From NCBI RefSeq assembly GCF_900215335.1, contig NZ_OCMT01000002.1, positions 1,178,001 to 1,242,000 on the forward strand: DNA of 64,000 bases, written 5' to 3'. Source of the stretch: Pedobacter xixiisoli (GTDB taxonomy: Bacteria > Bacteroidota > Bacteroidia > Sphingobacteriales > Sphingobacteriaceae). Below are positions 7,432-26,135 of this stretch, one piece after another. A model generated the notes under the pieces. The model saw nothing but the letters and a program-made list of their open reading frames with translations. It was not told the DNA's origin and made no database searches. Positions within the stretch are counted from its first letter, which is position 1; the number at the start of each line of letters is the position of its first letter. A program made the position numbers and the translations under genes.

Positions 7432-7439
7432 CAAAAATA
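7432..7439 (-). promoter_or_regulatory. Candidate -7 box of the ECF sigma gene
   Basis: TATTTTTG on the minus strand matches the Bacteroidota TAnnTTTG -7 element and ends 8 nt before the ATG at 7423. No convincing -33 TTTG is seen at the right distance, so this is a weak call made on the -7 box alone. Confidence 0.35.
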
Positions 7440-7603
7440 AACAAAATCTCTCTAGTGGATTATTTCTAAGACAATTAAGTATTGTAAAAACGGATGTTCT
7501 CTAGAATTACTAGATTAATTTCAAAATATTAGTTCATGTGAAGCGATCGAAAACGCCGTCAACCATCATTCAATAGAAAATTAGGAATGTGTATAAACAG
7601 AAA

Positions 7604-7624
7604 ACCCCGAATTTACTTCGGGGT
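7604..7624 (-). terminator. Terminator of tRNA-Phe copy 1
   Basis: An 8-bp perfect stem ACCCCGAA/TTCGGGGT with a 5-nt loop begins 10 nt after the 3' end of the tRNA and is followed on the minus strand by a short T run. It fits a factor-independent terminator. Confidence 0.75.
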
Positions 7625-7633
7625 CTGTGGAAG

Positions 7634-7881: not shown

Positions 7882-8379
7882 TTATCTGCTATAATCGTCT
7901 TGTATACGTACAATATCATTTTCATCAGAAGGGTTTCCTGGATTGGTGTGCTGCCATATTTCCGCAACTATCCCCCAGTCGGATAAACCAATCAGTCGGT
8001 GTCTTTCGCCCTGTTTTAATACAATCCGTTCCTGTTTATGGTATATTTTTAATTCACCTTCTAAATCAGTGTCACTTCTTACAATGCCTACATTTCCTTC
8101 AATCACTTGCCAAATTTCGGCACGGCCGTGATGATACTGCCAAGATAAACGCTGTTCAGGTGCAACAACCAGAACCTTAGGACTAAGTTTACCTCCAATT
8201 CTTAGTTCATCCACATTAATTCCGTCGAAATATAAGTCTGCAAAATATTGAGCCTGTTCTTCATCTATAACAAAAAAACCGCCCCAAGGTCTGTTAAAAT
8301 CTTTTGCACTTAATTTTAATCCTTGTTTTACTAATTGTTGTTCTACTTTATTAAAAAATTGGTTCTTATTATTATCCAT
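7882..8379 (-). CDS. Cupin protein resembling the type II phosphomannose isomerase domain
   Basis: A 165-residue single-domain cupin without signal peptide. It carries landmarks of the mannose-6-phosphate isomerase type II family: RPWGGFFVID near residue 30, the cupin core LSWQYHHGRAEIWQVIEG (about 95-112), KQGERHRL, and a C-terminal ENDIVRIQDDYSR resembling the EDDIVR..D.YGR ending of the bifunctional ManC/PMI enzymes. Inference: it isomerises mannose-6-phosphate to fructose-6-phosphate as the last step of this PUL. Stand-alone cupins of this kind are sometimes labelled phosphoheptose isomerase, so the exact substrate is uncertain. The start ATG is 3 nt from a 13-bp tandem repeat. Confidence 0.75.
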   Translation of the reverse strand: MDNNKNQFFNKVEQQLVKQGLKLSAKDFNRPWGGFFVIDEEQAQYFADLYFDGINVDELRIGGKLSPKVLVVAPEQRLSWQYHHGRAEIWQVIEGNVGIVRSDTDLEGELKIYHKQERIVLKQGERHRLIGLSDWGIVAEIWQHTNPGNPSDENDIVRIQDDYSR

Positions 8380-8449: not shown

Positions 8450-9304
8450 TTACTTTTTGCTCTTTAAATTATTAAGTTTATTTATCCTCTCTATTTCCGA
8501 CAATAATAAACGGTAGGCAGGTTTATCCATATCGTGACCATAGCCTTGAATTTCCAATAACTTTACATCTTTATGTCCTGTTTCCTTCAACATGCGCATT
8601 AAATATGCATTCTCTTCATAGCGACCCAACAATTCTAATTCTCTATCTCCAGTAATTAATAATATGGGCGGGGCATCAGGTCGAACGTGATAAAGAGGCG
8701 CTAACTCATCAACTATTACTTTTGTTGCTGCCATTTTTTTTTCTTGCCTAATCGTAAAATGTGTGATGGTATGACCGCTAAAAGAAATTAATCCCGCCAA
8801 TTTATTTGCATCTATTGCGTGTTTTTCCATCCATGATTTATCTAGGGTAATCATATTAGCTAAATACGCTCCCGCAGACATGCCAGCAATAAATATTTTA
8901 CTCTTATCCCCTCCAAATCTATCTATATTATTAAAAACCCATGCCACTGCTGCCGCTGCATCTTCTATGTAGGCCGGAGATTTTACCATGGGAGATAATC
9001 TATAACCTACGCCTACTACACAGATGTTTTTATCTTTCAATTCTGTTGGTATCTCTTTATTACCTCCAGTTAGCCCTCCTCCATGAAACCAAATCACGGT
9101 GGTAAAACTTTTCATATCTTTAGGATAATAAACATCCAAAACGCATCGTTCCTTTTTATCTTTATCCAGAAGATTATTTTTGTAATAGCTAATGTTTTTA
9201 CTTTCCAGATATCCTTGCTGTTGCCCAAACACCGAAAATATTGTATTAAAAAATAAAAACATTAATAGCATTGCGCTCTTTGGTATTGTAATAGTATTTA
9301 TCAT
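8450..9304 (-). CDS. Secreted alpha/beta hydrolase (esterase/lipase family)
   Basis: A 284-residue protein with a signal peptide (about 1-28, cleavage near VFGQ). It has the alpha/beta-hydrolase layout of the hormone-sensitive-lipase/BD-FAE-like esterases: oxyanion-hole motif HGGG at 74-77, nucleophile elbow GMSAG with Ser143, a late Asp in LITGDRE and catalytic His in GYGHDMD. As part of the PUL it may remove acetyl or other ester groups from the glycan; this role is inference. It lies 70 bp before the cupin gene and 261 bp after the T9SS-sorted gene, a gap that holds a long inverted repeat. Confidence 0.85.
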   Translation of the reverse strand: MINTITIPKSAMLLMFLFFNTIFSVFGQQQGYLESKNISYYKNNLLDKDKKERCVLDVYYPKDMKSFTTVIWFHGGGLTGGNKEIPTELKDKNICVVGVGYRLSPMVKSPAYIEDAAAAVAWVFNNIDRFGGDKSKIFIAGMSAGAYLANMITLDKSWMEKHAIDANKLAGLISFSGHTITHFTIRQEKKMAATKVIVDELAPLYHVRPDAPPILLITGDRELELLGRYEENAYLMRMLKETGHKDVKLLEIQGYGHDMDKPAYRLLLSEIERINKLNNLKSKK

Positions 9305-9565: not shown

Positions 9566-11440
9566 CTATTTAACGAACTTTGAAGTATATTGTTGATGTC
9601 CATCCTTAAAAACGACTACATAAACTCCCGCAGCTAAGCTGGCAATATTTACTTCAGCAGAACTATAACCTTTCTGTGTTGAAACTTTCGTTAAAAGGTT
9701 ACCGCTAACACTAAACACCTTAACCTCTGCATTATTTTCTGTAGTTGGATGCTGAATTTGAAGGGATGAACCTGTACTCCATGCTTTAAAATGAGCTTTA
9801 CTTAAACTAGGTAATTTTACAGCCTCAATTTCACTATACTTGTAGGTACCATCATTATCAACTATTTTTAAACGGTAATATAGGGTTGATGAAGTTACTA
9901 TGCTATGATCTGTGAATGAGTAGGTTTGTGGCCCAGCTAATTTGTTAGTAGGTTTGTTACCTATAGTAGTAAAACTTAAACCATTTATGCTTCTTTCTAC
10001 TTCAAATTCTTTAAAATTAACTTCATTTTCTGTTTTCCAAACTAAATTAATTTTCCCGTTTGTGGGGATGGCTTTAAAATCTATTAGATCTAAAGGTAAG
10101 GTCGCTCCAATTTCATACCTATGATTATATGCACCATTTGCATTAAAATCTAATTCAATAGCAATCTGTTGGTTTTTAGTATTTCCACGGAATTTATAAG
10201 AGTATTGGTAATCGTCACTATTAACACTATACAATCCGTATAGAGGCCCTGTAAAAAGATTATCTGCTGGGCGACTTGGATTATCAAAATTGACAGACCC
10301 CCAAAAAACAGATGCACCATTGGCTAAATCCATTTTAATTTTATACCGCTCATCATTCATAGTAGCAGGCCAAACAGGGCTTACTTTTGTACCTGTAAAT
10401 TTACCATTATTGGTATAAGGTAACAATAACTTATCTCCACCCCAACCATTGCTACTCATGTACAAATAAACGCTATTAATTTCTTGGCGAACAAAAGTTT
10501 TATTTACTAAATCTATTTTAATATAATAAGGTTTTAACACACCAGTAACTGCTAAAGCAGTATTACCTTCTACTACTGTGTTATTGGTTACTGTGTAGTT
10601 ATACGTTTGGCTATTAGCGGTTCCTGATATTGTAAAACTACCCGCCTGAAGACCTCCTACGAATTCAAAAACACCGACATCTTTTTTCTTTAATACAGCA
10701 GTAGTGGTTTCCAACGCAGAGCCAGAGATAGTTAGGTTATCTGCAATTACTAAATCGGCAACGTAATCAGTTATTTTATGGGTGTAATTAGATGTATTAC
10801 TAAAAATAACCTCAGCATTAAACAGCGTACCTGTATTGTTATACTTAGAAGCTATTTTATATTCTTTAGCTCCACCTGGCCACTTATCATTACTGTTTAA
10901 AAAATAGAGATCATAGTAAGATTGAGGAGTGCTACCATCTGGAACACCACCAGAGGCAGATGGCCCTGGCTGGAAAGTTTCTATTACTCCGCCTTCTAAA
11001 TTTAAGCGTATACGGTATCTATCGTCTCCCCACCCTGCAATTCCAGATAAACCTGTCGCTTTAAAAGATGAATTACCAACATAACTTAAAGTGCCTATAG
11101 AGAATGCATTCCAAGGTGCCCATAAAGTTATATTTTGTATTCTTTTAACATCTACCACTGGAGTAGCACCAGAATAATCTACACGAATACGATGAGGCAC
11201 CAAAGTTCCAGTAACGGTGATATTTGCAGTAGCTATCGTGTTATCGCCGGCAAAAGAATAATCTCCAGTCTTTAAAGAGGTATAAAGTTCGTAAACATTA
11301 CCGTTTAACTTCATCGGAATTGACGCTCCCGTTTCTGTAGCGGTTCCCTGCAACGAGAGAGAAGCTGGCGGAATAGCAGCTATAGCATTTATGCTGAAAA
11401 GTAGCATTAGCACAAAATAAAAAGTAAATTTTGTCTTCAT
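9566..11440 (-). CDS. SusE/SusF-like glycan-binding protein with tandem units and a T9SS sorting domain
   Basis: A 624-residue secreted protein with an ordinary signal peptide (about 1-22), not a lipobox. Two tandem units of roughly 200 residues (about 27-230 and 232-447) each pair an Ig-like module with a second module carrying a DERYKIKMDL / DDRYRIRLNL motif and ending in YTHK or YNHR. The same module ends the SusE-like lipoprotein encoded at 14771-15919. A fibronectin-type stretch follows (about 448-545, LPLDLIDFKA..NGKINLVWKT), then a T9SS type A sorting domain (about 550-624, ending GVYVVVFKDGHQQYTSKFVK). Expected role: surface glycan binding for the PUL, exported by the type IX system. 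Specificity is unknown. Confidence 0.82.
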   Translation of the reverse strand: MKTKFTFYFVLMLLFSINAIAAIPPASLSLQGTATETGASIPMKLNGNVYELYTSLKTGDYSFAGDNTIATANITVTGTLVPHRIRVDYSGATPVVDVKRIQNITLWAPWNAFSIGTLSYVGNSSFKATGLSGIAGWGDDRYRIRLNLEGGVIETFQPGPSASGGVPDGSTPQSYYDLYFLNSNDKWPGGAKEYKIASKYNNTGTLFNAEVIFSNTSNYTHKITDYVADLVIADNLTISGSALETTTAVLKKKDVGVFEFVGGLQAGSFTISGTANSQTYNYTVTNNTVVEGNTALAVTGVLKPYYIKIDLVNKTFVRQEINSVYLYMSSNGWGGDKLLLPYTNNGKFTGTKVSPVWPATMNDERYKIKMDLANGASVFWGSVNFDNPSRPADNLFTGPLYGLYSVNSDDYQYSYKFRGNTKNQQIAIELDFNANGAYNHRYEIGATLPLDLIDFKAIPTNGKINLVWKTENEVNFKEFEVERSINGLSFTTIGNKPTNKLAGPQTYSFTDHSIVTSSTLYYRLKIVDNDGTYKYSEIEAVKLPSLSKAHFKAWSTGSSLQIQHPTTENNAEVKVFSVSGNLLTKVSTQKGYSSAEVNIASLAAGVYVVVFKDGHQQYTSKFVK

Positions 11441-11476: not shown

Positions 11477-13300
11477 TTATTTTTTATTTAATGAGTTGGT
11501 TATTTTCTGATTTATTTCTTTCATTCTATTCTCTTCCACTTTCACTACTTTACGGTCGTAAGTTATTAAACCATTTACCTCACCCTCTACATCAGTAGTT
11601 TGAGTATAAACGGCTGCCGAGTATCCCATTTTAATTAACCTCAAAAGTTCTTCGCCATATTTAACGTACTCATCTGTCACTTCTTTCGCATTTTTAAATT
11701 GTACATACCCCCAATTTTTATCTGCTTGCCATAAATGATCTTTTAGCGGTAAACCTATTCCCCCGTATTCTCCTAAAACTGTAGCTCTTTCAGAATCGTT
11801 TTCATAAACGGTTAAACTTGGTCCAGGATAATGATGAATATCCAACATATCGCCGGTACGGTAATGATTTCCTCCACTTGCAGGATTAACTAGCCTAGAG
11901 GGATCATATCTTTTTGTCCACTCTGAAATCTCTACTGTTTTGAACTGACCCCAAGCTTCGTTAAATGGTACCCAAGTAACGATAGAAGGATAAGAGTATA
12001 AATTGTCGATAATCTCTTTCCACTCTTTTCTATAATCTGCTTCAGACTCAACCGACCTTACCAATTCTTCTCCATTAAAAAATTGACGCATTTGCCATTT
12101 CGGTGATTGTGTTCCATTTCCGTTGGGCATATCTTGCCAAACCAGTATGCCTACTTTATCACAATGGGTATACCATCTAGCAGACTCTACCTTTACATGT
12201 TTGCGGATCATGTTGTAACCAAGTTCTTTGGTCTTTTTGATATCATAAAGCAAAGCCTCGTCTGTTGGAGCGGTGTATAAACCATCTGGCCACCAACCCT
12301 GATCTAATGGTCCAAAATGAAAATAATCTTTATTGTTTAATTGCAAACGCACTATGCCCTGTTGATCTCTTTTATAAGAAACTTTACGCATCGCGGCATA
12401 GCTTTTCACATTGTCTATTAATTTTCCTTTATTAAATAACTTGATTTCCAAATCATATAAAAATGGCGATTCTGGTGACCATAGTTTAGCATTTGGAATT
12501 GAGATTTCTGTTTTTTGTCCAGCAGCAAACTTAACAACCGCAATTACTTTGTTTCCCTCTTTTACAATAGCTTCTATAATTGATGTAGAGTTAGCATTTT
12601 GAGCATTAACATGTATTAACAACTTATTATTGTCAACATCTGAAGTTGATTTTACGTTAGCGATGTATTGCTCATTTACAGGCTCTAACCAAACTGTTTG
12701 CCAAATACCTGATACTGGAGTGTACCATATTCCATGAGGATTCTTGATTTGTTTACCCCTTGCTTGATATCCGTCATCTGTTGGGTCCCATACTTTTACT
12801 ACTACTTCTTGTAATCCTGTGGTAAGAAATGGAGTAATGTCAAAATCGAAAGCTGTATATCCTCCTGTATGTGAACCAACTTTTATATCATTTACAAAAA
12901 CATCCGCTTTCCAATCTACCGCACCAAAATGCAATAGGATGTTCTTCCCACTCCAATTGGCTGGTATTTCAAATTTTCTTCGATACCAAAGTTCTTTAGT
13001 TTTCCCTAATTCTTTTTGCACTCCAGACAAACTAGATTCTACAGCAAAAGGCACTAATATTTTACCTTGAAAATCAGCAGGCTGCGGCTTACCTGCAGAA
13101 ACTATTGCATAATCCCACAAGCCGTTTAAATTTATCCAGTCTATACGTTCCATAATTGGCCTTGGATATTCTGGCAAAACATTTTTAGAATCTATTGTTT
13201 CGGCCCATTTTGTTTTGATTTTATCTCCAGCGGGTTTCCATTGCGCAAACAGAAAGGAGTTTGTAAACAATAGTATTAACAAAGAGAATTTTGCTTTCAT
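11477..13300 (-). CDS. Glycoside hydrolase family 2 protein
   Basis: A 607-residue secreted enzyme with a signal peptide (about 1-20). Domain order: sugar-binding jelly roll (about 45-210), Ig-like domain (about 212-310), TIM barrel (about 320-600). The acid/base Glu sits in VPFNEAWGQ (about residue 448) and the nucleophile in VLGEYGGIG (about 511), as in GH2. The C-terminal domains of LacZ are absent. Specificity (beta-mannosidase, beta-galactosidase or other) cannot be read from sequence. The frame can begin at a TTG at 13306, but ATG at 13300 gives a normal signal peptide. It lies between the T9SS-sorted protein and a GH76 gene. Confidence 0.88.
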   Translation of the reverse strand: MKAKFSLLILLFTNSFLFAQWKPAGDKIKTKWAETIDSKNVLPEYPRPIMERIDWINLNGLWDYAIVSAGKPQPADFQGKILVPFAVESSLSGVQKELGKTKELWYRRKFEIPANWSGKNILLHFGAVDWKADVFVNDIKVGSHTGGYTAFDFDITPFLTTGLQEVVVKVWDPTDDGYQARGKQIKNPHGIWYTPVSGIWQTVWLEPVNEQYIANVKSTSDVDNNKLLIHVNAQNANSTSIIEAIVKEGNKVIAVVKFAAGQKTEISIPNAKLWSPESPFLYDLEIKLFNKGKLIDNVKSYAAMRKVSYKRDQQGIVRLQLNNKDYFHFGPLDQGWWPDGLYTAPTDEALLYDIKKTKELGYNMIRKHVKVESARWYTHCDKVGILVWQDMPNGNGTQSPKWQMRQFFNGEELVRSVESEADYRKEWKEIIDNLYSYPSIVTWVPFNEAWGQFKTVEISEWTKRYDPSRLVNPASGGNHYRTGDMLDIHHYPGPSLTVYENDSERATVLGEYGGIGLPLKDHLWQADKNWGYVQFKNAKEVTDEYVKYGEELLRLIKMGYSAAVYTQTTDVEGEVNGLITYDRKVVKVEENRMKEINQKITNSLNKK

Positions 13301-13388
13301 TTTCAATTGCCTTAATTCATTAAATCGTTTTAGTAACCTGATTAAGTCAATTTACACAAGAATAAATTTTGCAGAAATTGACTTAGAA

Positions 13389-13515
13389 ACTGTTTAAAAA
13401 ATGGAATAAATATTTGACAGGTTGAGTTTGGTGAGGACACCAAACTCTAGCGACTTGCTATAGGCGAATGTCCCCAACCGCCTAAGTATTTATTTTCATT
13501 GAAAATTTAAACAGT
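13389..13515. repeat. 127-bp nested inverted-repeat element
   Basis: Outer arms ACTGTTTAAA (13389-13398) and TTTAAACAGT (13506-13515) and inner arms AATAAATA (13405-13412) and TATTTATT (13487-13494) enclose two hairpins: GAGTTTGGTG-AGGA-CACCAAACTC (13424-13447) and TAGGCG..CGCCTA (13461-13484), separated by TAGCGACTTGCTA. It fills most of the gap between the GH76 and GH2 genes. The double-hairpin core is related, in reverse orientation, to 63276-63334. Confidence 0.85.
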
Positions 13516-13535
13516 CCTTAATTAAATGCAAATAC

Positions 13536-14705
13536 CTAGTTTAGAAGCCCTTTATTTTGCAATAGTGCCATTGCTTCCATTAAAGTGCAGCCACTTATTT
13601 GTGCACGAAGAGATACATTAGCCGTTTGGGGGGCTTCCCACCAATGATAGCCATACAAAGGAACAGGTGTTTTTAGCGTTCCTTTAAGCCATAAAGTTTC
13701 TGCACTATGCTTTATAAAAGTGATGTAACGCTTTCTATTTGCTTCGGGCAAATCTTTATGCATAATTAACTGAGTAAAGTATCTTATAAAGATGCCTTTG
13801 AACAAATTCACATCATGATCTTGTTGCTCTGCCCAGTCTGACAATACCCTATTATTGGTATTGATAAGGTTTGCCATCGTCCAATCGGCAGTTTTTATCG
13901 CATCTTTCAAATAAGTTCTGTCTCCAGTAATGTTATAAATTTCTAATGCCGAGCCAATATATGTACCTGTATTATAAGTCCAGTCTCCCCTAGTATTATC
14001 TATAGTTTCGAACACCCTACCTGATTGTTGAACTACTCTGTGGTTTTTCATCCAATCATAAATTCTATTGTACCATACGTTGTTCTTTAACCCAAGAGCG
14101 GTTTGAGCCTCTCCGTATTTTTGCCAGCGTCTTGCGGCAGTAATTGTAGATGGCCCGTTAGTAGGAATACCTTTACTTCTTCCTGCTGTATTCTCTTCGT
14201 GATTCCATCTGATACCCCCACCATCAAAATCATTCCAACCTTTAACTATTTCGTCCCATAAATATTTAGCTGATGTCTCATAGCGAGTATCTCCAGTTAC
14301 TTGAAAGGCTCTCAAGTGCGCTACCGCATGCCAAGCCATATCATCATAGTAATTATTATAGAAACTATTTCCATTTTTTACTCTTACGCCTTGGTAAAAA
14401 TCATTAATGGCATTCTTGTATAGGTCTGATTTTGTTCTCTCATAAGCATCAATTAAGACTTCTAAACCATGCGCCTCCGGCCAATAATCATATTGACCAA
14501 TTGCACCTAGATTATTATTATTAAAATGATGTTTCGTTGTATTCCAGTAAGCTGTCATTAAAGCCTGACTACTGCTATCTGCTACTTTATTCCAATCTAT
14601 TTTTGGTATTGGATTTCTTTCGATATACTCATCATTAATTTTTCCGCATGAGTAAAACCCGAAAACGATTAACAAGCATACTGTGATATATAATTTTAAT
14701 TTCAT
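13536..14705 (-). CDS. Glycoside hydrolase family 76 lipoprotein (endo-alpha-1,6-mannanase type)
   Basis: A 389-residue lipoprotein; the lipobox Cys is residue 20 (GFYSCGK) when translation starts at ATG 14705, which is preferred over the upstream in-frame start at 14744 because it gives a clean signal peptide. The (alpha/alpha)6-barrel shows the GH76 hallmark pair of adjacent aspartates in NNYYDDMAW (Asp121-Asp122), plus GGGIRWNHEE and DWTYNTGTYIGSALEIY. Family knowledge: GH76 cleaves alpha-1,6-mannan backbones of fungal or bacterial origin. As a lipoprotein in a PUL it is probably surface exposed and makes the first cuts. It lies 65 bp after the SusE-like gene. Confidence 0.9.
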   Translation of the reverse strand: MKLKLYITVCLLIVFGFYSCGKINDEYIERNPIPKIDWNKVADSSSQALMTAYWNTTKHHFNNNNLGAIGQYDYWPEAHGLEVLIDAYERTKSDLYKNAINDFYQGVRVKNGNSFYNNYYDDMAWHAVAHLRAFQVTGDTRYETSAKYLWDEIVKGWNDFDGGGIRWNHEENTAGRSKGIPTNGPSTITAARRWQKYGEAQTALGLKNNVWYNRIYDWMKNHRVVQQSGRVFETIDNTRGDWTYNTGTYIGSALEIYNITGDRTYLKDAIKTADWTMANLINTNNRVLSDWAEQQDHDVNLFKGIFIRYFTQLIMHKDLPEANRKRYITFIKHSAETLWLKGTLKTPVPLYGYHWWEAPQTANVSLRAQISGCTLMEAMALLQNKGLLN

Positions 14706-14770
14706 GACAAAATCTTTTAGAAGGATGTTTAGCTTAATTACCAAACATCCTCTTTGACTACTAAAAATTA

Positions 14771-15919
14771 TTATATTTTAACCATTTTATGTGTGTATGC
14801 TCCACTGGCATTCATTGTTATGGTTACGTCAACAAAGTTCTTTGCAAGGTTAGCAGCATCGTAGAAATCGTTGGCAAATTTAAATACACCTGTAAATGCG
14901 CCAGCTTCTACTGGTTTCATTTGGAAATAAGACTCGGTAGCTAAGTTTGGACGATTGTCTGAATTTCCTAGCTGCCCCCAATTCTCAACACCAGTATTGA
15001 ATGTATAAACAAACTTGTAACGGTCTTCTTGCCATCCGCCTTTGTTAACGAAAATTACATTATAGTTAGCTAGTTTCCATACGCCTCCACCTTGGTAAGT
15101 AAAAGTATGCGTAACTCGGTTTTGATCGCTTAACAAAATCCCTATAGATTGTAACTCTCTAATCACCACACTTCCAGAAAGAAAATCTATTTTAATTTTA
15201 TAAACTGCGGTTTTAGCTACCTCAGCACCATTATTATTTTCCTTAAAACTTGTTCCCGACGGATCTACAGTAAATGTTCTAGATACATTTTGTCTTGAAT
15301 CTACAAAATGATATTTTTTACCAACTGTTAACCTGGTGTATATTTCAAATTCGTTACCACCGTCTAATGCTTTTAATTGCTGTGCTTTAGAAAGATCTGT
15401 TCCTCCTTCAGATGCTTCGCCGCTAATAAATACAGCCAATGGTGCTTCTATACCTTCTAATCTTGTAATGGTGAGGTTTCTGCTTAAAGCTGATTTGGTT
15501 TTAGACATGCCTCTTGATGATACTACCGTCCATTTTAAAGCAGCTTGTTCTCCAGAAGCTGCACCTGCTAGCGCCGCTATTCTATTTAATATTCTATGTG
15601 TAATGGTAAGACCAGAACTAGTTCCTTTGTTGTCAGAACTAACAGAATAAATAGGTTTAGAGAAGTCTCCACCTGCTTTATCAAACAATACATCGTAGTA
15701 AACAATGCTATTATCATCAGCCGTTGCTTTTTCCCATTCGAAAAATACGCTGGCAGTAGCCGTTGGTTGCAAATTAACGGTTCTATTATCTGCTGGTTCG
15801 TACAAATTACTTACCTCAGAAACCTTTACCTCTCTTAATTCGTCTTTCTTTTTGCAACTTGTGAACGAAACAATTACCATTAGTAATAATGCTAATTGTG
15901 TGAATATTTTTGTTTTCAT
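14771..15919 (-). CDS. SusE-like outer membrane glycan-binding lipoprotein
   Basis: A 382-residue lipoprotein (lipobox SFTSCKKK) with start ATG at 15919; the frame extends to 15943 but the shorter form gives a normal signal peptide. An N-terminal SusE-type Ig domain (about 25-160, LYEPADNRTVNL..VFFEWEKA) is followed by one two-module unit (about 160-382) with EDRYKFVYTF and the terminal GAYTHKMVKI. The gene sits directly after SusD, the SusE position. It should bind glycan at the cell surface beside the SusCD complex. The same two-module unit occurs twice in the T9SS-sorted protein at 9566-11440. Confidence 0.85.
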   Translation of the reverse strand: MKTKIFTQLALLLMVIVSFTSCKKKDELREVKVSEVSNLYEPADNRTVNLQPTATASVFFEWEKATADDNSIVYYDVLFDKAGGDFSKPIYSVSSDNKGTSSGLTITHRILNRIAALAGAASGEQAALKWTVVSSRGMSKTKSALSRNLTITRLEGIEAPLAVFISGEASEGGTDLSKAQQLKALDGGNEFEIYTRLTVGKKYHFVDSRQNVSRTFTVDPSGTSFKENNNGAEVAKTAVYKIKIDFLSGSVVIRELQSIGILLSDQNRVTHTFTYQGGGVWKLANYNVIFVNKGGWQEDRYKFVYTFNTGVENWGQLGNSDNRPNLATESYFQMKPVEAGAFTGVFKFANDFYDAANLAKNFVDVTITMNASGAYTHKMVKI

Positions 15920-15959
15920 ATTTATGTTTTTAATGTTAACCACTAAGTTTTTTTAATAA

Positions 15960-17585
15960 TTAATATCCTGGATTTTGACTTAAATTTGCATTAAGAACTC
16001 TTTCTTTTCTTGGAACTGCCCACAGATAATCTCTGTTCACGTTAAATCTGCCTGGAGTAAGTTTAATATATTCGAAAACGCCACCAACCTTTTCAAATTT
16101 GGCTCCTCTACGGTCTGATGTTAATACAACTGGTGCAGTTTTCCATCTGCGTATATCAAATACACGTAGTCCTTCCAAAGCAAGCTCGCAACGTCTTTCG
16201 TTTCTTATAATTTCTTGCAACTGTAACGGAGTTGCCGTAGTAGGAAAACCAACCGCAGCAGTAGTATTATCAAATCCTGCTCTTAACCTCAATGGCTTTA
16301 TGGTCTGATCCCATACGGCCTGTGTCATCGCACCATTTTCATGCATCGCCTCAGCATACATCAAAAGAACATCTGCAAATCTTATTAATGGTAAGTTTAA
16401 GTTCGATGCCCAACCTAATGTGTAAGTTGAAGGATTAGGATCTGCATATTTACGATAATAATATCCTGTAGCAGTGGTAGCCTGTCCCTGACCTGTGTAT
16501 TTATTGGAAACTCTTCCAGCTGGATTAACTCCATCGGGATTTATTACAATTGGGTAAGTCACCCCGCTTCTGTCTCTCCATGTAGAGCCATCATAAACTA
16601 TGGTTGCACCCATTCTAAAATCACGGCCAGCATAGGGAGCATTTCCTTCTACCCATTTGTTACCATTGGTCATTAAATAAGAATCAACCAATTCTTGTGT
16701 TGGTGCAGCAAGGCTAAGACGAGCTTCGGCAGATAAAGGAGCATAATCTACAAGATTACCCCATGTGCGCAACTGCGGAACGTAGCCCATTTCGAGAATA
16801 CTTTCGCTATTATATTCATTAGATGCTAAAAATAACCCCTCATAAGTTGGAAATAAGGTATAGGTACCAAAATTGGTAGTATTCACTAGCTTATTACAGT
16901 ACTCGGCAACTTTAAGAAAATTACTTTCATACAAATACGCCCTAGCATTTAGTGCAACAGCAGCTCCTTTGGTAATTCTACCTCTGTCTGCAACTGCGTA
17001 ATCCAGATTTGAAGGCAGTACAGCAGCAACCTCATCTAATTCTGTATGAATCCAGTTTTTGATTTGTGTGCTTGGTGTACGAGCTATTGACTTAGATTCT
17101 GCTAAGGTAATATCCTTTGTATAGAAAGGTACATCGCCAAAATGAGTTGTCAATCTCAAATAAAGAAATGCTCTTATAAAGCGTATTTCAGCTTTCATGC
17201 GTTCTTTTAGTGCACCATTCATATTAGGAACGCGGTCTACATTCTCTAGAAATGTGTGGCAGGTTTTAATACCACCATAACAATCATCCCACTCGCTGGC
17301 AAAGCGTCCATTAGATGCATCTGCCTGGCCAGTTGCAATTAATTTTTCATTAGTGTTTCCGTAACCAGAATAAACATTATCGCTTAAAACCTCGTTATTA
17401 AAAAGGTTGTCGCTACTAAACATCTGGCGGTAAGCCATATTTACAACCGAAGAAGCTTTATCTGCTGTGCTCCAATAGTTTGCTTCTGTAAATCTATCTG
17501 TTGGTGCAACATCCAGTTTTACACATCCTGTAAGCAATACACATCCGGAAAATATGATTGCAATTGTATATTTCATACTATTCAT
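15960..17585 (-). CDS. RagB/SusD family glycan-binding lipoprotein
   Basis: A 541-residue lipoprotein (lipobox LLTGCVKLD) of full SusD length. The N-terminal SusD-like region shows ADKASSVVNMAYRQMF and IRFIRAFLYLRLTTHFGDVPF; the C-terminal RagB/SusD domain shows RFADVLLMYAEAMHENG, IRNERRCELALEGLRVFDIRRW and the final LNANLSQNPGY. It should form the lid of the SusC channel 18 bp upstream. An AAGGA-like sequence lies at normal distance before ATG 17585; a second in-frame ATG at 17576 is possible. Confidence 0.95.
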   Translation of the reverse strand: MNSMKYTIAIIFSGCVLLTGCVKLDVAPTDRFTEANYWSTADKASSVVNMAYRQMFSSDNLFNNEVLSDNVYSGYGNTNEKLIATGQADASNGRFASEWDDCYGGIKTCHTFLENVDRVPNMNGALKERMKAEIRFIRAFLYLRLTTHFGDVPFYTKDITLAESKSIARTPSTQIKNWIHTELDEVAAVLPSNLDYAVADRGRITKGAAVALNARAYLYESNFLKVAEYCNKLVNTTNFGTYTLFPTYEGLFLASNEYNSESILEMGYVPQLRTWGNLVDYAPLSAEARLSLAAPTQELVDSYLMTNGNKWVEGNAPYAGRDFRMGATIVYDGSTWRDRSGVTYPIVINPDGVNPAGRVSNKYTGQGQATTATGYYYRKYADPNPSTYTLGWASNLNLPLIRFADVLLMYAEAMHENGAMTQAVWDQTIKPLRLRAGFDNTTAAVGFPTTATPLQLQEIIRNERRCELALEGLRVFDIRRWKTAPVVLTSDRRGAKFEKVGGVFEYIKLTPGRFNVNRDYLWAVPRKERVLNANLSQNPGY

Positions 17586-17603: not shown

Positions 17604-20600
17604 TTAAAATTCCACATTTAAACCACCACCAAAATATTTGATCAATGGATAGTTTCTTCCACTATTTGCTCCACCAGCTCCCATATTAGAACCAAACTCT
17701 GAAGATTCAGGATCTATGAATGACTGGTGGCTTAACGTGATCATATTTTGCGCATTCAAAAAGAATCTAACTTTTTGAGCTCCTATTTTTTGTGTCAACG
17801 ATTTAGGAAGTGAATAACCAATTTGAATATTTTTAAGCCTTAAATAAGCTGCATTAAATATTTGCAAATCAGAACCTTTACCGTAATTATTAGTTGTAGA
17901 TGAGGTTGATGGAGCTGTTAAACGAGGATATCTTGCTTCCTGATTGTCTGGTGTCCAATAATCTAATTGGTGTTGGAATATTACGAATGAATAATTGCCA
18001 TGAAATGGCTCGATCGATTCTCCACGTAAAGCCATTTCACGTTTACCAACGCCTTGCCACAACATACCTATATCGAATCCTTTCCATTCAAAATTATAGT
18101 TAAAACCAAATGTAAATCTTGGAAAAGCGTGGCCTAAAACAAATCTATCGCTATCATTAATTACACCATCTCCATTTCTATCCACATACCTGATGTCTCC
18201 GGGTTGTAAATCTGCTCCGATTGGTATCGCAGCAGACAATATTTCTTCCTGATTACGGAAATACCCGTCCATCTTATAGCCATAATAGGAAGCGTAAGGC
18301 AAACCTACTCTTGTGATACGTTCTATTTCATCAGATTTATCTATCCTTTCAAATCCTTCAAATTCTGTAACCTCATTTCTAGAATCACCAAGGTTAAATC
18401 CGAAAGTATGGTTAAAATCGCTGTGCTTAAGACGATAATTAATGCTTAGATCCCATCCCTGATTTTTCATTGACCCTATATTGGCATTAGCTACTGCACC
18501 ACCTAAAGTGCCAGGTACAAGCGGCGTAAGTAAAATACCCGACGTTAATTTATGGAAGTAATCAAATGAAACATTTAACTTATTTTTAAAAAACCCTGCA
18601 TCTGCACCAATATTAAAAGTTTTAGAGGTCTCCCATCTTAAGTTGGGATTTCCAAAGGTATATCCAGTACCACTTCCCGCAACATTATTAAATCCATATT
18701 GATTATTATATACGGTATAGGTAGTGTAGGTTTGATAATCGTCGGCACTTTGATTCCCTAAAGTACCATAAGAACCCCTTATTTTTAAATCCCCTACACG
18801 CTCCTTATATGCTTTCATGAAACTTTCTTCAGACGCTCTCCATCCTAAAGAAACAGATGGAAAAAACCCCCATCTCTCTTCTTTTGCAAATTTCGAAGAC
18901 CCATCATACCTCATACTTACTTCGGCGAAGTACCTATCTTTATAAATATAACCTAAACGACCGAACACAGAAGCTAAAGCTCTTTCTGTTGTACCTCCAG
19001 GTGTGTTATAGCTACTTACATCTATAATTGTAGTCTCTATAGGCACACCTAATTCCGGATCTACAAATTGTTTCTTAATTTCGTTTCTTTGTTGACGATA
19101 AGACTCATTAGAGTAACCTGCTAAGGCTGTGATATTATGATCTTTATTAAAAGTACGGTTAAAATCTAGTAGAAACTGACTATTCAAATAAGTTGCTTTT
19201 CCGTTATAATCTTCGATACTATAATTATTGGAAGTACTAGCGTTAATTGGTGTATCCGAACCTGATAAATCATAGATTGGCACAAAAAATCTTCTGATTA
19301 GGCGGTGATCAGGATTAAGGTCTAAACCAAAAATCGCTTTTGCTTTTAGTCCTTTAATAATTTCGTATTCTCCGTTTACAATCCCCTGAAAATGGTCATT
19401 ATCAGTTTTAGTAAAGCCACCTTGCTCCAAATCAGCAAGTGGATTACTATTTAATATTTCGTTTGCATAATAACGTCCATTTTCTGGTAAAGGCTTGTAA
19501 GTATTATAGACAGGAACACGAGCTGAGTTTGCCAACAAAAACCCTGTATTTCCTTGAAATGATTTCCCTTCGGTTCTGTCATAAGCAGCTATAGTAGTTA
19601 ATTTAAACTTTTTATATTCTGCGGTTAGGTTTAAACGGAAATTATATCTTTTTGTACCATAATCTGGACCTCTAAAATTACTTCTCTGATCGAAATAACC
19701 TGCTGATACCATATAAGAGGTATTTTCTGAACCGCCTCTGACACTTGCATTATGCGTTTGCTGAAAACCATCTTTTAAAATGGCATTCATCATATATTCT
19801 GAATCGTGAGTAGCAAAATCCTGAATCTGTTGAGATGAATATACAGGGGCTAAACCTGAATTGACATAGGCATCGTTACGCAGCATAGCATTCTCGTAAC
19901 CAACAACTGGCTTTAGCAAGACTTCTGGATTTTGAGAACCTACACTTGTGCTAAACGATACTCGGGGAGTCATATTCTTACTTCCCTTTTTGGTGGTTAC
20001 TAACAACACTCCATTGGCCGAACGTGAACCATAAATGGCGGCACTACCAGCATCTTTTAGCACAGATATGCTTTCAATATCACTTGGATTAAGACTGTTT
20101 AGCGCTCCTGTACTGTTCGCAATTACACCATCTATTACTACCAAAGGTTCTGTATTATTGAAAGTACTTACACCTCTAATGTTAATATTTAGCGTATTAT
20201 CGTTAGGATTCATACTTCTTTGCTGAATTACGAGACTGGGTGAAACTCCCTGCAATGCCTGAGTAGTATTCGCTACAGGACGGTTTTCTATTATAGAAGA
20301 CTTGATCTGATCTATTGCTCCTGTAACACTTTTACGAGTAGTAGTACCGTAGCCAATTACTACTACTTCGTTCATTAACTGAGTATCCTCCTGTAGCTTA
20401 ATTTTAATTTCATTTGCATTTACTACGGTAAACGATGACTTTTTAAAGCCTACAAAAGAAAATTCTAGAATAGCTCCTACTTGTGATTTTAATGAGAAAT
20501 ATCCTTCAGAATTTGTAACTGTTACTTTTTTGGTTCCCTTTTCTGCCACGGCAACACCAACCAATGGTAAGTTTTCGGAATCCAAAACATAACCTGAAAC

Positions 20601-20810
20601 AATTAAATCTTGTAGTTTGTTAGAGAGATTTGCACTGGTCTGTTTAGAACCGTACTTGTTAGTTGCTTGTTTATTTTCTTCTGATGCGAAAGATATACTG
20701 CCATAAAAGAGTATAAACAAGATAAATAATCTGGCAGCAAAAAATGGTCTATCGTCTAAGGAAGATGAAAAGATACTTTTTGCCGACTGCGAACGACATT
20801 TATTGATCAT
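17604..20810 (-). CDS. SusC/RagA TonB-dependent oligosaccharide channel of the PUL
   Basis: A 1068-residue outer-membrane transporter. Signal region at about 25-43; carboxypeptidase-regulatory-like domain at about 68-145; the conserved EVVVIGYGT stretch near 148; plug domain about 160-270 with DIESISVLKDAGSAAIYGSR; the beta-barrel fills the rest and ends in YFGGGLNVEF. Unlike the SusC at 1811-5443 it lacks an STN domain, so it is not expected to signal through a FecR protein; regulation more likely comes from the LacI gene. It lies 174 bp after the MFS gene; no consensus promoter was found in that gap. Confidence 0.95.
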   Translation of the reverse strand: MINKCRSQSAKSIFSSSLDDRPFFAARLFILFILFYGSISFASEENKQATNKYGSKQTSANLSNKLQDLIVSGYVLDSENLPLVGVAVAEKGTKKVTVTNSEGYFSLKSQVGAILEFSFVGFKKSSFTVVNANEIKIKLQEDTQLMNEVVVIGYGTTTRKSVTGAIDQIKSSIIENRPVANTTQALQGVSPSLVIQQRSMNPNDNTLNINIRGVSTFNNTEPLVVIDGVIANSTGALNSLNPSDIESISVLKDAGSAAIYGSRSANGVLLVTTKKGSKNMTPRVSFSTSVGSQNPEVLLKPVVGYENAMLRNDAYVNSGLAPVYSSQQIQDFATHDSEYMMNAILKDGFQQTHNASVRGGSENTSYMVSAGYFDQRSNFRGPDYGTKRYNFRLNLTAEYKKFKLTTIAAYDRTEGKSFQGNTGFLLANSARVPVYNTYKPLPENGRYYANEILNSNPLADLEQGGFTKTDNDHFQGIVNGEYEIIKGLKAKAIFGLDLNPDHRLIRRFFVPIYDLSGSDTPINASTSNNYSIEDYNGKATYLNSQFLLDFNRTFNKDHNITALAGYSNESYRQQRNEIKKQFVDPELGVPIETTIIDVSSYNTPGGTTERALASVFGRLGYIYKDRYFAEVSMRYDGSSKFAKEERWGFFPSVSLGWRASEESFMKAYKERVGDLKIRGSYGTLGNQSADDYQTYTTYTVYNNQYGFNNVAGSGTGYTFGNPNLRWETSKTFNIGADAGFFKNKLNVSFDYFHKLTSGILLTPLVPGTLGGAVANANIGSMKNQGWDLSINYRLKHSDFNHTFGFNLGDSRNEVTEFEGFERIDKSDEIERITRVGLPYASYYGYKMDGYFRNQEEILSAAIPIGADLQPGDIRYVDRNGDGVINDSDRFVLGHAFPRFTFGFNYNFEWKGFDIGMLWQGVGKREMALRGESIEPFHGNYSFVIFQHQLDYWTPDNQEARYPRLTAPSTSSTTNNYGKGSDLQIFNAAYLRLKNIQIGYSLPKSLTQKIGAQKVRFFLNAQNMITLSHQSFIDPESSEFGSNMGAGGANSGRNYPLIKYFGGGLNVEF

Positions 20811-20984: not shown

Positions 20985-22217
20985 TTAGTGCTTAACTTTA
21001 TAAAATTTGGCTCCAAATAAAAAGATGACCAGATAGCAGATAATTGGCAAATAAAAAGCAGCAGCAACACTCTGATTTGCAATTAATCCCATTAAGAAAG
21101 GAAACACAGCACCACCTACAACGCCCATAGAAATAAATGATGATGCTTGTTGCGTATGCTTTCCTAAGTTTTTGATGCCCAAACTAAAAATTGTAGGAAA
21201 CATGATGCTAAAGAAAAAATTGATAAATAATAATGCGATAAAAGAAGTCCATCCTAATCCCTGTGCTACAATAAGACACATTACGATGTTTAATAAAGCG
21301 AATATTGCAAGTAATCTACTGGCCGAAATATATTTCATTAAAAAAGTACCAATAAACCTTCCAGCAAGCATCATCCCCATGAAAAGCACTAAATAGTGAC
21401 CTGCAATTTCATCAGAGAATCCCATTACTTCATGGCCATAATTGATAAAGAATGCCCAAGTGCCACCTTGCGCTGCTACATTAAAAAATTGCGCAACTAC
21501 TGCCCAAACAAAGTGTTTGTGCTGAAAAAGTTTCTTAGCTGGCTTTATGTCCACATTAACTGCTTCGGTATTTGTTTCCGCTATTTCTTCGTGTGGATCT
21601 GCAAGCGCAGGAACTTTAACGAAACTAAATGCAACAGCAATTATTAAAATTACAGTGCCAATTCCCAAGTAGAGATTTTTCACGGACTCCATACCTTCTC
21701 CCTGACTTGCAGCGCCGCGAAACAAGAAATAGGTTCCAAGAGCAGGTCCTATCATTGTGCCCACAGCGTTAAATGCCTGCGCAAAATTCACACGTTGATC
21801 ACTACTGCGTTGGTCGCCCAAAGAAGCCATAAATGGATGAGCTACTGTTTCCAATGTAGCAAGACCACAACCAAGAATGAATAATGCGATACGAAAAAAC
21901 CCAAATGATTCTGCACTTGCAGCGGGAACGAATAAAAAAGAGCCTGCGGCAAAAAGGACAAGTCCTAATAAGACCCCATTTTTATAACCAAATCTTTTCA
22001 TAAACAAACCTGCAGGAATACTCATGATAAAATATGCGCCGAAAATAGAAAACTGTACCAAACCCGAATTGGCCTTCGAAACATTAAGCACAGATTGGAA
22101 ATGCTTGTTTAGTACATCGCCCATAGTGATGCCAATGCCCCAAAACATAAATAGGGAGGTAACGAAGACAAGCGTTATTAAAAATTTGTTTTCTGTAAAT
22201 CGAACTTTTTCTTGCAT
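20985..22217 (-). CDS. FucP-like sugar:proton MFS symporter
   Basis: A 410-residue inner-membrane protein with about 12 hydrophobic segments and the layout of the FucP/GluP sugar branch of the major facilitator superfamily (FSIFGAYFIMSIPAGLFMKRFGYKNGVLLGL near residue 52-82; LETVAHPFMASLGDQRSSDQRVNFAQAFNAVGTMIGP). It should carry a monosaccharide, in this context most likely mannose, from periplasm to cytoplasm. The gene follows GH76 by 34 bp, consistent with one transcript. Confidence 0.88.
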   Translation of the reverse strand: MQEKVRFTENKFLITLVFVTSLFMFWGIGITMGDVLNKHFQSVLNVSKANSGLVQFSIFGAYFIMSIPAGLFMKRFGYKNGVLLGLVLFAAGSFLFVPAASAESFGFFRIALFILGCGLATLETVAHPFMASLGDQRSSDQRVNFAQAFNAVGTMIGPALGTYFLFRGAASQGEGMESVKNLYLGIGTVILIIAVAFSFVKVPALADPHEEIAETNTEAVNVDIKPAKKLFQHKHFVWAVVAQFFNVAAQGGTWAFFINYGHEVMGFSDEIAGHYLVLFMGMMLAGRFIGTFLMKYISASRLLAIFALLNIVMCLIVAQGLGWTSFIALLFINFFFSIMFPTIFSLGIKNLGKHTQQASSFISMGVVGGAVFPFLMGLIANQSVAAAFYLPIICYLVIFLFGAKFYKVKH

Positions 22218-22251: not shown

Positions 22252-23328
22252 TTATAATTTCTCTACTTGCGCCAGTAACGAATAAATTTCTATCATCGCC
22301 CCCTGATCTATTAATCGTTTTTCTGAGCGTGTGCCCACTAAATTTTGCTCGTTACGTTCTTTTTCCCATATCGCATCGGCATCTGTTTTAAAGAAGTTTA
22401 TCCATTCTGGATTTTTATCAATTTTATACAGCTCCATATAACCTCTAAGCATTACGGCATTAAACCAGTATTCGTTTGGCAACCTATTATTTTTGAAGAA
22501 ATGCGCCTTACCTGCTTTTGCTACACGCTTTGCTTCTTCAAGATATTTGGCATCTTTAGTAAGGTTATATAAAATAACAGCCGACTGTAACATTGTACCA
22601 GTATTGTATGTGTAAGTGTCTTTGTTAATTTTTAAAGATGGAATTTGGATATTATCCCAATAAACGCCTTCCGGAGATTGCAAACGACTTTTAGTCCAAT
22701 CGTAAACAGCTATAGCTGTTTTTAAATATTCTGGTTTAGGATTTTGTTGATAAAGTCTAAGTGCCACCAACACCCCAGGACCATTAGAACACGTGTTCTT
22801 TGTAGTCATATCTTTCTCTCTCCAGTATATTCCTCCACCAGCAACAGTATCAAGCCCAAAAAGAATAAAATCATATATTTTATGAGCTTCTTTTAGATAC
22901 TTCTTGTTGCCATTACGCTTATAAGCATCTAAATAGGTAATAGCTACCCATTGGTTATCATCGTAATATTTAGTGGTAATTTTTTCTTTTGTAACATAAT
23001 CCTGATAAGCGGGAATTGGTTTGGTGTTTACCCAATACTGGTCAACTGCTTTTACAACTGGCTTCATGAAATTACTTCCCGGAAACAACACTTCCATTTC
23101 ATTAGTTGCCTGTAAATATGCGCACAATGGCCACAACCACGAATGTTTATTTTCGTTTTTAGCACTATCCGTACTCTCGTAATATAACGACGTTTTATTC
23201 GCTTTTAAATAGGTGTTTACAGCATGATCAATCTTTTTAACACGATCGATATATTTAGACTCTTGTGCGGCGACAAGTCCAGAAACAAAAAGAACAACGG
23301 TAAGTAAGGTAATTTTTTTAAAAATCAT
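22252..23328 (-). CDS. Secreted glycoside hydrolase family 76 protein
   Basis: A 358-residue protein with an ordinary signal peptide (about 1-21, VAAQE), so probably periplasmic rather than lipid anchored. GH76 signs: adjacent aspartates in TKYYDDNQW (Asp123-Asp124), GGGIYWREKD, CSNGPGVLVALRLY and YTYNTGTMLQSAVILYNLT. It is clearly related to, but divergent from, the lipoprotein GH76 at 13536-14705. A periplasmic copy would process imported mannan fragments. It lies 53 bp after GH125. Confidence 0.88.
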   Translation of the reverse strand: MIFKKITLLTVVLFVSGLVAAQESKYIDRVKKIDHAVNTYLKANKTSLYYESTDSAKNENKHSWLWPLCAYLQATNEMEVLFPGSNFMKPVVKAVDQYWVNTKPIPAYQDYVTKEKITTKYYDDNQWVAITYLDAYKRNGNKKYLKEAHKIYDFILFGLDTVAGGGIYWREKDMTTKNTCSNGPGVLVALRLYQQNPKPEYLKTAIAVYDWTKSRLQSPEGVYWDNIQIPSLKINKDTYTYNTGTMLQSAVILYNLTKDAKYLEEAKRVAKAGKAHFFKNNRLPNEYWFNAVMLRGYMELYKIDKNPEWINFFKTDADAIWEKERNEQNLVGTRSEKRLIDQGAMIEIYSLLAQVEKL

Positions 23329-23381: not shown

Positions 23382-24800
23382 TTAAGACAACAATTCTGGT
23401 CTCTCATTAAAGACTTTCCATAAAAATTCTCCAAAAATGGTATTTGTCCATGCAAACCATGATCTAGTAAACTTCTCCGGATTATCTTTATGAAAAGATT
23501 CATGCATAAACCCAGTTCCGCCGTGGGTATTTTGCAGCATTTTTATACATTGGCTAATCTCGTCGTTGCTTGTACTGGTTAAACCTTTAGCGATTACACT
23601 CATTGGCCAAACCATATCCAAACCTATGTGTGGCCCCCCAATTCCTTCTCCGGTAGTACCTGTAAAGAAAAATGGGTTATGCTCAGACCATACAAATTTT
23701 CTAGTATTTTGATAGATTGGATCTTCAAGAGATACGGCTCCTAAGTAAGGCATTGCTAACAAACTCGGTATATTTGCATCATCCATTAGGTTGTAACTAC
23801 CTAATCCATTTACCTCAAATGCATAAATATCTCCGAACTCTTTATGGTGTACTATAGCATGTTTCTTCAAAGCAGCTTCAACCTCCAAGCCTAAATCAAG
23901 TAGTTCAGTAGCTGTTTTTTCATCTCCAACAATTACTTTCATCATTTCTGATGCTTGTTTTAAACTCGTTACCGCAAAAAAGTTAGAAGGTACTAAGAAA
24001 GAGAAAACAGTAGCATCATCACTAGGCCTAAAAGCCGAACAAATTAAGCCCACAGGTTTAACCGGGTATCCGTAACCCGACATTGGCACCCCATCCGTAG
24101 CCCAAGATGTTTTTCTTTGGAAATGATAAGGACCTAAATCTTGTTTTCTTTGTTGCTCTTTGAACGTTTTTAAGGTTGCTTTGATCGCATTTTGCCAATT
24201 CGTGTCGAAACAACTTTTATCGCCAGTTTCTTTCCAATAATGATAAGCTAAACGAATAGGATAGCAAAGCGAATCTATCTCCCATTTCCTTTCGTGTATC
24301 CCTGGCTTCATGTCAGTAATATCATCTTTCCACTCTCCTTGCTTATGAGGATCATTGTAGAAAGCATTGGCATACGGATCTTTCAATACACATGCCGTTT
24401 GATGATTAATTACTCCAGCTATTAACTGTTTTAACTTTTCGTCTTTTTTCATGAAAGGCAAATACGGCCAAACCTGCGCTGTACTATCTCTTAGCCACAT
24501 CGCATCTATATCTCCAGTAATTACGTACGTATCTGGCCTTCCGTTTTTTAAAGAGAAACTAACCGTAGTGTCTAATGTATTCGGAAAACAATTATTAAAA
24601 AGCCATGCTAGTTCTTTGTTTTTTACACGCTTGGTAAATTCTACTATTGCCTTTTCTATTGCAGGACTACTAAAATTTCTTTTAGACAAAGGCGTTCTCA
24701 CCTCTTTAAAATTTAACGAACTGGCATAAGACAGTGGGTTGCCTAAATAAAGCGCACCACCAATCAAGCTAACATTTCTTATAAAAGATCTACGTTTCAA
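23382..24800 (-). CDS. Glycoside hydrolase family 125 protein (exo-alpha-1,6-mannosidase type)
   Basis: A 472-residue enzyme with a Tat-like N-terminus (KRRSFIRNVSLIGGALYLG). The conserved block YVITGDIDAMWLRDSTAQVWPY (about 92-113), WEIDSLCYPIRLAYHYW, and GTGFMHESFHKDNPEKFTRSWFAWTNTIFGE identify the metal-independent alpha-mannosidase family GH125. Known members release mannose from alpha-1,6-linked ends, complementing GH76. The start codon is TTG at 24800: an in-frame stop lies five codons upstream and no ATG intervenes. A strong promoter lies about 400 nt upstream (25209-25240). Confidence 0.9.
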   Translation of the reverse strand: MKRRSFIRNVSLIGGALYLGNPLSYASSLNFKEVRTPLSKRNFSSPAIEKAIVEFTKRVKNKELAWLFNNCFPNTLDTTVSFSLKNGRPDTYVITGDIDAMWLRDSTAQVWPYLPFMKKDEKLKQLIAGVINHQTACVLKDPYANAFYNDPHKQGEWKDDITDMKPGIHERKWEIDSLCYPIRLAYHYWKETGDKSCFDTNWQNAIKATLKTFKEQQRKQDLGPYHFQRKTSWATDGVPMSGYGYPVKPVGLICSAFRPSDDATVFSFLVPSNFFAVTSLKQASEMMKVIVGDEKTATELLDLGLEVEAALKKHAIVHHKEFGDIYAFEVNGLGSYNLMDDANIPSLLAMPYLGAVSLEDPIYQNTRKFVWSEHNPFFFTGTTGEGIGGPHIGLDMVWPMSVIAKGLTSTSNDEISQCIKMLQNTHGGTGFMHESFHKDNPEKFTRSWFAWTNTIFGEFLWKVFNERPELLS

Positions 24801-25253: not shown

Positions 25254-26135
25254 TTATTGAGGATTTTGAACTAAAAATAATTCCTCCCACAAACAACCAG
25301 CTCCAACCAAAGCAGCATCTTCCCACAATGACGCCTGCAAAATCACAACATCTTTATTTTCAATACTTTTACTCATTCCGCTTTCGAACATACTTAGAGA
25401 TTTCCCAATATTCCCCCCTATAACAACTACGTCTCCCTGCTCCTCTTTCAAGAAGTCATTAACAAAATCACCTAAATTATTCGAAAACTCTTCGATAATC
25501 TGATTTTTCGATTCCGAATCACCTGAATTAACTAAAGCTTCTACACTTTCTAACTTCTGTTTAGTTAACTCTTCAAATCTTCTTTCAAACCATCTGGCTG
25601 ATATATAGTCTTCAGCAATACCGTCGCCCATAGGTACAATTGCCCTAAATAAATCACGAGTAACCCCATTAACACTAACTGCAGAACCTAATCCAGTACC
25701 GAGAGTAATCCCTAAAATTATGCCATTTAATGACAGCTTTTGATGCATAATCTCCCCATGTAGAAATGCCTCAGCATCGTTTCTGAACATTATATTAGCA
25801 GGTTTTACGGACAATGCATCAGCCAAGGCCTGCTTAATATCTCTTCCATATAACGAATCGTATTTACTAAGCCCTTTGATATAAGAAACTCCTTTCTCGT
25901 AGTCAAACGGGCCCGGCATAGCTATACCAAAAAACACCTCTGTAGAATTGTCTGCCGACACAAAATCCTGCAAAAAGGTTGTCCAAGAATGAATAATGGA
26001 TTCGAAAGAACCGTGAGAGTTTACACGAAGTCTTTTTCTAGTTTCAGACAACACCGACCAATTTTTAACATTTATTTCACCAGCGGTTATATGCGATCCT
26101 CCGATATCTACACCTATCAGCTTTTTATTTCCCAT
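25254..26135 (-). CDS. ROK-family sugar kinase homologue
   Basis: A 293-residue cytoplasmic protein of the ROK/actin-like ATPase fold: phosphate-1 loop IGVDIGGSHITAG (about 7-19), GIAMPGPFDYEKG, sugar-site FRNDAEAFLHGE, and phosphate-2 loop GITLGTGLGSA. The usual ROK zinc signature (His plus CxCGxxGC) is missing; the equivalent region reads VPMGDGIAEDYISARWFERRF. Zinc-less ROK proteins are known in this phylum. In context it most likely phosphorylates mannose, but glucose or fructose cannot be excluded. A perfect LacI-type palindrome lies 34 bp upstream of its ATG. Confidence 0.8.
   Translation of the reverse strand: MGNKKLIGVDIGGSHITAGEINVKNWSVLSETRKRLRVNSHGSFESIIHSWTTFLQDFVSADNSTEVFFGIAMPGPFDYEKGVSYIKGLSKYDSLYGRDIKQALADALSVKPANIMFRNDAEAFLHGEIMHQKLSLNGIILGITLGTGLGSAVSVNGVTRDLFRAIVPMGDGIAEDYISARWFERRFEELTKQKLESVEALVNSGDSESKNQIIEEFSNNLGDFVNDFLKEEQGDVVVIGGNIGKSLSMFESGMSKSIENKDVVILQASLWEDAALVGAGCLWEELFLVQNPQ

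Follow-up and report, generated by a model that had tools for sequence, protein, structure and literature searches.

The gene under study occupies positions 9566 to 11440, on the minus strand, of the window, by which we mean the whole 64,000-nucleotide stretch of the Pedobacter xixiisoli genome analyzed here. All larger open reading frames from a LacI-type regulator (26338..27357, domain scan) down to a mannose-6-phosphate isomerase-type cupin (7882..8379; PF01050, E 2e-10) are encoded on that strand. The regulator is followed by a ROK family protein (sugar kinase or regulator; 25254..26135, domain scan), a GH125 alpha-mannosidase (23382..24800; PF06824, E 9e-172), a GH76 protein with a non-lipoprotein signal peptide as judged by eye (22252..23328; PF03663, E 5e-39) and an MFS transporter (20985..22217, domain scan). 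Next come a SusC TonB-dependent transporter (17604..20810, domain scan), a SusD (15960..17585; PF07980, PF14322) and a SusE-like lipoprotein (14771..15943, ATG at 15919). The latter carries a TSC lipobox, a PF14292 domain and, at 14774-15448, one unit consisting of an X25 pair (domain scan, profile and model). A second GH76 protein, of the endo-alpha-1,6-mannanase family and with a lipobox-like FYSC (13536..14744; PF03663, E 7e-34), and a GH2 family hydrolase (11477..13306, domain scan) separate this lipoprotein from the gene under study, which begins 36 bp behind the GH2 gene. On its other side lie a BD-FAE-type esterase (8450..9304, domain scan) and the cupin, all again on the minus strand.

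Because two GH76 proteins, a GH125 protein, a mannose-6-phosphate isomerase-type cupin and a ROK protein lie beside SusC and SusD, the gene content points to an alpha-mannan-type PUL. No GH92 was found among the 19 window proteins scanned. The mannan PULs of Bacteroides thetaiotaomicron are described as having DUF1735-DUF4361 proteins at the susE position instead (PMC11216935). Directly behind the last PUL gene, a 10-pair terminator-like hairpin was observed (7602-7626, minus strand); promoter- and terminator-like sites in the region showed no excess over shuffles. Beyond the mannan PUL, and on the same strand, comes a further SusD/SusC pair accompanied by genes for FecR and an ECF sigma factor (448-7444).

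The intact reading frame at 9566-11440 encodes 624 amino acids, comprising a putative signal peptide, two SusE-type X25-pair units, an Fn3-like region and a T9SS type A sorting domain. The N terminus (aa 1-22, 11375..11440) resembles a signal peptide by eye and contains no cysteine. Unit 1 (aa 23-227, 10760..11374) and unit 2 (aa 228-445, 10106..10759) come next and are followed by the Fn3-like region (aa 446-545, 9806..10105), a label given both in an earlier note on this DNA and in our analysis, for a stretch in which a Pfam match is absent. Tail cassettes of this kind are common in T9SS cargo, and stretches of aa 446-624 share 25-41% identity with many other T9SS proteins. The C-terminal sorting domain itself (aa 560-624, 9569..9763) was matched by PF18962 (E 7e-8, 33.1 bits, cut-off 27) and by TIGR04183 (39.3 bits, curated cut-off 23), both above cut-off. 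The earlier note had described the protein as T9SS-sorted and lacking a lipobox, and both statements agree with these results: there is not a single cysteine in the 624 residues, so a lipobox is missing. PF14292 did not match at E 0.1, as compared to 7e-20 for the SusE-like protein of the window, and the Pfam-type domain scan matched no catalytic domain.

The genome itself contains 46 places with a TIGR04183 tail over the cut-off, and it encodes SprA. SprA is widespread in the genus (39 of 40 genomes), yet an evident T9SS sortase, PorU-like, was detected in only three of the 40, the own genome included, with every match under the curated cut-off. Since the two components are so unevenly distributed, most relatives in the genus may lack the T9SS export route.

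The two units are tandem copies, at aa 25-224 and aa 229-441, of the approximately 215-residue unit that ends the neighboring SusE-like lipoprotein. This recurrence had been noted earlier on the basis of motifs, which are indeed present (QEDRYKFVY...YTHKM in the SusE-like protein, DDRYRIRL...YTHK and DERYKIKM...YNHR in the T9SS protein), and it is borne out by sequence comparisons. When the complete T9SS protein was compared with the SusE-like protein by BLASTP, two placements resulted, one for unit 2 (E 2e-5) and one for unit 1 (E 5e-5). A profile of 31 SusE-like relatives scored 71.5 bits for aa 25-224, 126.2 bits for aa 229-441 and 148.5 bits for the SusE-like protein, with a top score of 6.6 among 1,000 shuffles; the window sequences were excluded from this profile and its members come from other genomes, the relatives themselves having been gathered with the T9SS protein as query. 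A second unit profile (A4) yielded 118 and 148.5 bits; three of its 65 rows are the window units, and the rest were found mainly via the SusE N-terminal domain. The window units share only 26-29% identity with the SusE unit and 28% with each other. The X25 Pfam family PF22058 matched the units weakly (E 0.93, 10 bits against a cut-off of 27), and phmmer searches of single proteins against the PDB returned chance matches only. The unit profile matched the first module of the dextran surface-binding protein BT3088 (E 8e-8).

Structure predictions covered unit 1 and the SusE-like lipoprotein. The model of unit 1 (mean pLDDT 91.3) gave no significant Foldseek match in the PDB (all E > 0.9); a second aligner ranked SusE 4fch (Z 10.2), SusE 4fem (Z 9.9) and SusF 4fe9 (Z 9.0) as its top three. 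The superposition on 4fch covers SusE residues 176-387 (167 aligned residues, rmsd 5.2 Å, 10% identity), and the X25 proteins 7rpy and 2wan were also among the fold matches. The model of the SusE-like lipoprotein (pLDDT 93.2) likewise had SusE/SusF entries as its top three (Z 11.6 for SusF 4fe9, 10.0 for SusE 176-387, and 9.5), while rows 5-50 of the list for the full-length model were mostly Fn3-like matches to its N-terminal domain. Of the three units whose superposition the earlier note had called for, unit 1 and that of the SusE-like protein were modeled, and both fall on the same part of SusE. As both models align to the two-domain region 176-387, one unit is, by these predictions, a pair of X25-type beta-sandwich modules, and the T9SS protein would have four of them. 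The earlier idea of a SusE unit that recurs twice is correct in this respect, with the amendment that each unit corresponds to two modules and not to one. SusE is described with two X25 modules and SusF with three (PMC9112005).

We also considered how the units arose. In a tree of 97 sequences (rows more than 80% identical or below 100 bits were dropped, and three were re-added by hand), the two window units pair together (92/88, not starred), apart from the SusE-like protein of the window. Their branches, at 2.26 and 2.44, are long relative to a median of 0.24. The AU test rejected a grouping of the three window units as one clade (p 0.015, on these long branches), and when one window unit was omitted, the position of the other shifted. 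The sister pairing of units 1 and 2 may reflect long-branch attraction. Given the 26-29% identity and the rejected three-unit clade, recent copying from the neighboring susE appears unlikely, and we reject a recent local duplication for now.

Unit matches were found in 67 of 300 genomes of the order, 15 of 395 of the phylum, 14 of 395 of the class and 34 of 145 of the genus, as well as in 32 of 339 Flavobacteriaceae (family sample G663, assigned through named records with a SusE of the same type), 10 of 200 genomes of a further family (G689) and one of 23 relatives picked for T9SS-type matches; these samples overlap. A first scan of named genomes found no relative. Co-occurrence of unit and sorting domain was assessed on 256 loci, matches outside them being judged by frame length only. 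The CTD profile drew on 28 CTD places of the own genome; among the 46 in total, 30 had loci, and two of these, L094 and L109, were excluded. The form with a double unit and a T9SS tail occurs in one of the 145 genus genomes, the own genome, and is absent from the other genomes whose matches were examined in the order, phylum, class and family samples and among the 23 relatives. Searches of the order, phylum, genus and class had suggested that no comparable architecture exists. This was overturned by the Flavobacteriaceae search, which provided another PUL with a SusE-like unit and a T9SS domain, of the kind that the earlier note had proposed to look for. Apart from the window gene, one reading frame in the 256 loci has both parts (locus L255, 4211-7192). 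In its 993-residue product, Big_2 and a SusE-type X25 pair are joined to GDSL, a part that matches LamG weakly, and a T9SS tail. It is encoded between GH30 and GH3 genes in a beta-glucanase-type cluster of Flavobacteriaceae, 1.5 kb behind a SusE-like lipoprotein, with whose X25 pair its own is 44% identical (205 aa, E 7e-42), well above the 26-29% in the window.

Several other candidates were rejected as parallels. At L132, a SusE-like gene is followed at a distance of 1.3 kb by the gene of a T9SS protein that is LamG-type and has no SusE unit; the T9SS protein at L142 has a weak F5/8-type match only, and L072-L076 and L079 encode SusE/SusF-like lipoproteins as judged by eye. At L211, a protein with GDSL and the unit was read in a frame without a sorting domain; the frame at L256 runs off the contig, so a tail may be missing from the sequence. 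Among the unit-bearing reading frames of loci L113-L192, 86 of 87 have a lipobox-like cysteine (the pattern missed six, of which five were recovered by eye, and the start of L136 is truncated). Two X25 pairs in one chain were seen in the Bacteroides SusF-like lipoproteins of L144 and L147, and two one-unit proteins lie side by side in the PULs L143, L146, L157, L161, L171, L177 and L180.

Three further observations concern related modules. The L132 protein (12445-14412, a Bacteroidales MAG) is itself a T9SS-sorted, LamG-type and lectin-like protein beside SusE. Proteins with Big_2, a SusE-type X25 pair, GDSL and a LamG-like part form a family present in different bacterial families (L211, 2311-5868, minus strand; L256, 1-2559, minus strand; L255, 4211-7192); where read, their neighbors are alpha-1,3-glucanase-type or GH30/GH3 genes, and one member has a T9SS tail. 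In four SusD-type proteins from genomes of the Flavobacteriaceae type, a SusE/SusF-type PF16411 module lies inside the SusD_RagB domain (L231, 397-2304; L236, 964-2865, minus strand; L238, 412-2319; L242, 403-2310).

The T9SS cut-offs, BLASTP and the profile agree that one PUL encodes the same binding unit in two ways, once in a lipoprotein and once in a protein with a T9SS tail, as had been suggested. In our view, the gene product is probably an accessory surface protein that binds glycan for the alpha-mannan PUL and is composed of four X25-type modules and a generic T9SS tail cassette. The protein most likely serves as a T9SS-exported catcher of alpha-mannan that acts outside the SusC complex; both its export and its mannan binding are what we infer here. 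It would leave the cytoplasm by Sec and cross the outer membrane via T9SS with cleavage of the tail, and the mature protein would be anchored on the cell surface or released. There it would bind alpha-1,6-mannan or yeast-type mannan at some distance from the SusCD complex, thereby raising the local substrate concentration and feeding the lipid-anchored GH76; binding next to SusC would fall to the SusE-like lipoprotein. From the PUL context, it is plausible that the two proteins share a putative glycan ligand.

Docking of the T9SS protein on SusC is not expected, since it is missing the N-terminal Ig-like domain. In the dextran utilisome, unambiguous density is reported for the first two SGBP domains only (PMC7618045), consistent with docking of the N-terminal part at SusC. 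The authors also remark that the starch SusC offers additional lipoproteins no spare surface (PMC7618045). A protein that lacks the N-terminal domain and takes a different export route would fit a second, undocked role.

The strongest alternative is that the units have diverged toward another ligand, or act as a non-binding spacer or adhesin, so that the common fold would reflect ancestry only. An alignment of 62 relatives has 47 conserved columns, of which unit 1 keeps 28 and unit 2 keeps 27, as compared to 37 in the SusE-like protein of the window; a conserved stretch, GSxNxDNxRP, is missing from unit 1, and the W of SWGRDERYKF is missing from unit 2. Together with the long branches (2.26 and 2.44, median 0.24), this lack of conserved positions suggests that the ligand and affinity of the window units may differ from those of their relatives, or that binding may have been lost. 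In Ruminococcus bromii, binding by paired X25 modules is reported to need aromatic residues from both lobes (PMC9112005). Against this alternative, the gene sits inside the PUL, 36 bp behind GH2, and its 624-residue frame is unbroken with both units at full length; we regard it as unlikely.

Less probable still is the idea that the protein leaves the cell surface altogether and binds mannan as a free, soluble factor, for example to loosen yeast or fungal walls or to mobilize substrate. In other T9SS bacteria, type A cargo is anchored by the sortase. No membrane-anchor domain was matched in the protein, as this explanation would predict; yet there is no catalytic domain either, so with release the cell would lose substrate. 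Full release of T9SS cargo is known from ChiA of Flavobacterium johnsoniae (PMC5127042). That the gene is a one-off, lineage-specific fusion without lasting function, a young orphan architecture, is very improbable: its form was indeed found in one of 145 genus genomes and in none of the others whose matches were examined, but its units are 28% identical, which, if they were duplicated in this gene, means that the frame stayed open over a long divergence, and a parallel exists in Flavobacteriaceae.

With the accessory surface glycan-binding protein as the preferred reading, we tentatively raise a broader proposal, to which we give somewhat less than even chances. In some PULs, a single glycan-recognition unit would be shared out over two export routes, on a lipoprotein docked to SusC and on a T9SS-exported protein that acts away from the transporter. 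Such a split would have two or more origins, one of them in a pure binding protein with four X25 modules in the alpha-mannan PUL of the Pedobacter type and another on a hydrolase-like protein at the GH30/GH3 locus of Flavobacteriaceae. The utilisome discussion does not settle the arrangement of PULs in which binding proteins outnumber the docking sites on SusC (PMC7618045). The T9SS protein described here has the modules of its lipoprotein neighbor but lacks the docking domain and would use a different export route, which lets capture near SusC be compared with distant capture. SusE-type X25 modules also move among the surface parts of PULs (SusE, SusD inserts, T9SS proteins), which helps to annotate unnamed T9SS cargo. 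In the literature searched, which was mainly open-access, we found no description of SusE-type units on a T9SS protein.

Among known systems, SusE and SusF of B. thetaiotaomicron (4FCH, 4FEM, 4FE9), which are PF14292/PF16411 lipoproteins, share the tandem X25-type modules and the SusCD locus. The T9SS protein differs from them in having neither PF14292 nor a lipobox, and in combining four modules with a T9SS tail. The earlier suggestion of a T9SS counterpart of SusF does not hold in the strict sense, as both the N-terminal domain and the lipid anchor of SusF-type proteins are absent. By sequence, the nearest solved relative of the units is SGBPdex BT3088 (9SJE, 9SJI), through its first module, although BT3088 is part of the SusC-docked dextran utilisome (PMC7618045). 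The SusF-like proteins of Bacteroides (L144, L147) resemble the T9SS protein in having two tandem X25-pair units each; unlike it, L144 has PF14292 and a lipobox-like cysteine, and both are without a T9SS tail. The GDSL protein of Flavobacteriaceae likewise combines a SusE-type X25 pair with a T9SS tail and is encoded near a SusE-like lipoprotein, but with one pair only and with additional Big_2, GDSL hydrolase and LamG-like parts. BACON-domain proteins are also described as PUL surface modules with a C-terminal Por_secre_tail T9SS domain (PMC11216935); BACON, in contrast, is a different module and comes without a duplicated SusE-type unit. Sca5 X25-2 of R. bromii (7RPY), which was among the fold matches, is an X25 pair as well, and Sca5 has a C-terminal sortase sequence (PMC9112005), whereas it is a Gram-positive scaffoldin for starch. 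The parts are thus known, namely SusE-type X25 pairs, T9SS tails, T9SS-secreted PUL enzymes and T9SS-tailed surface modules; the combination is new.
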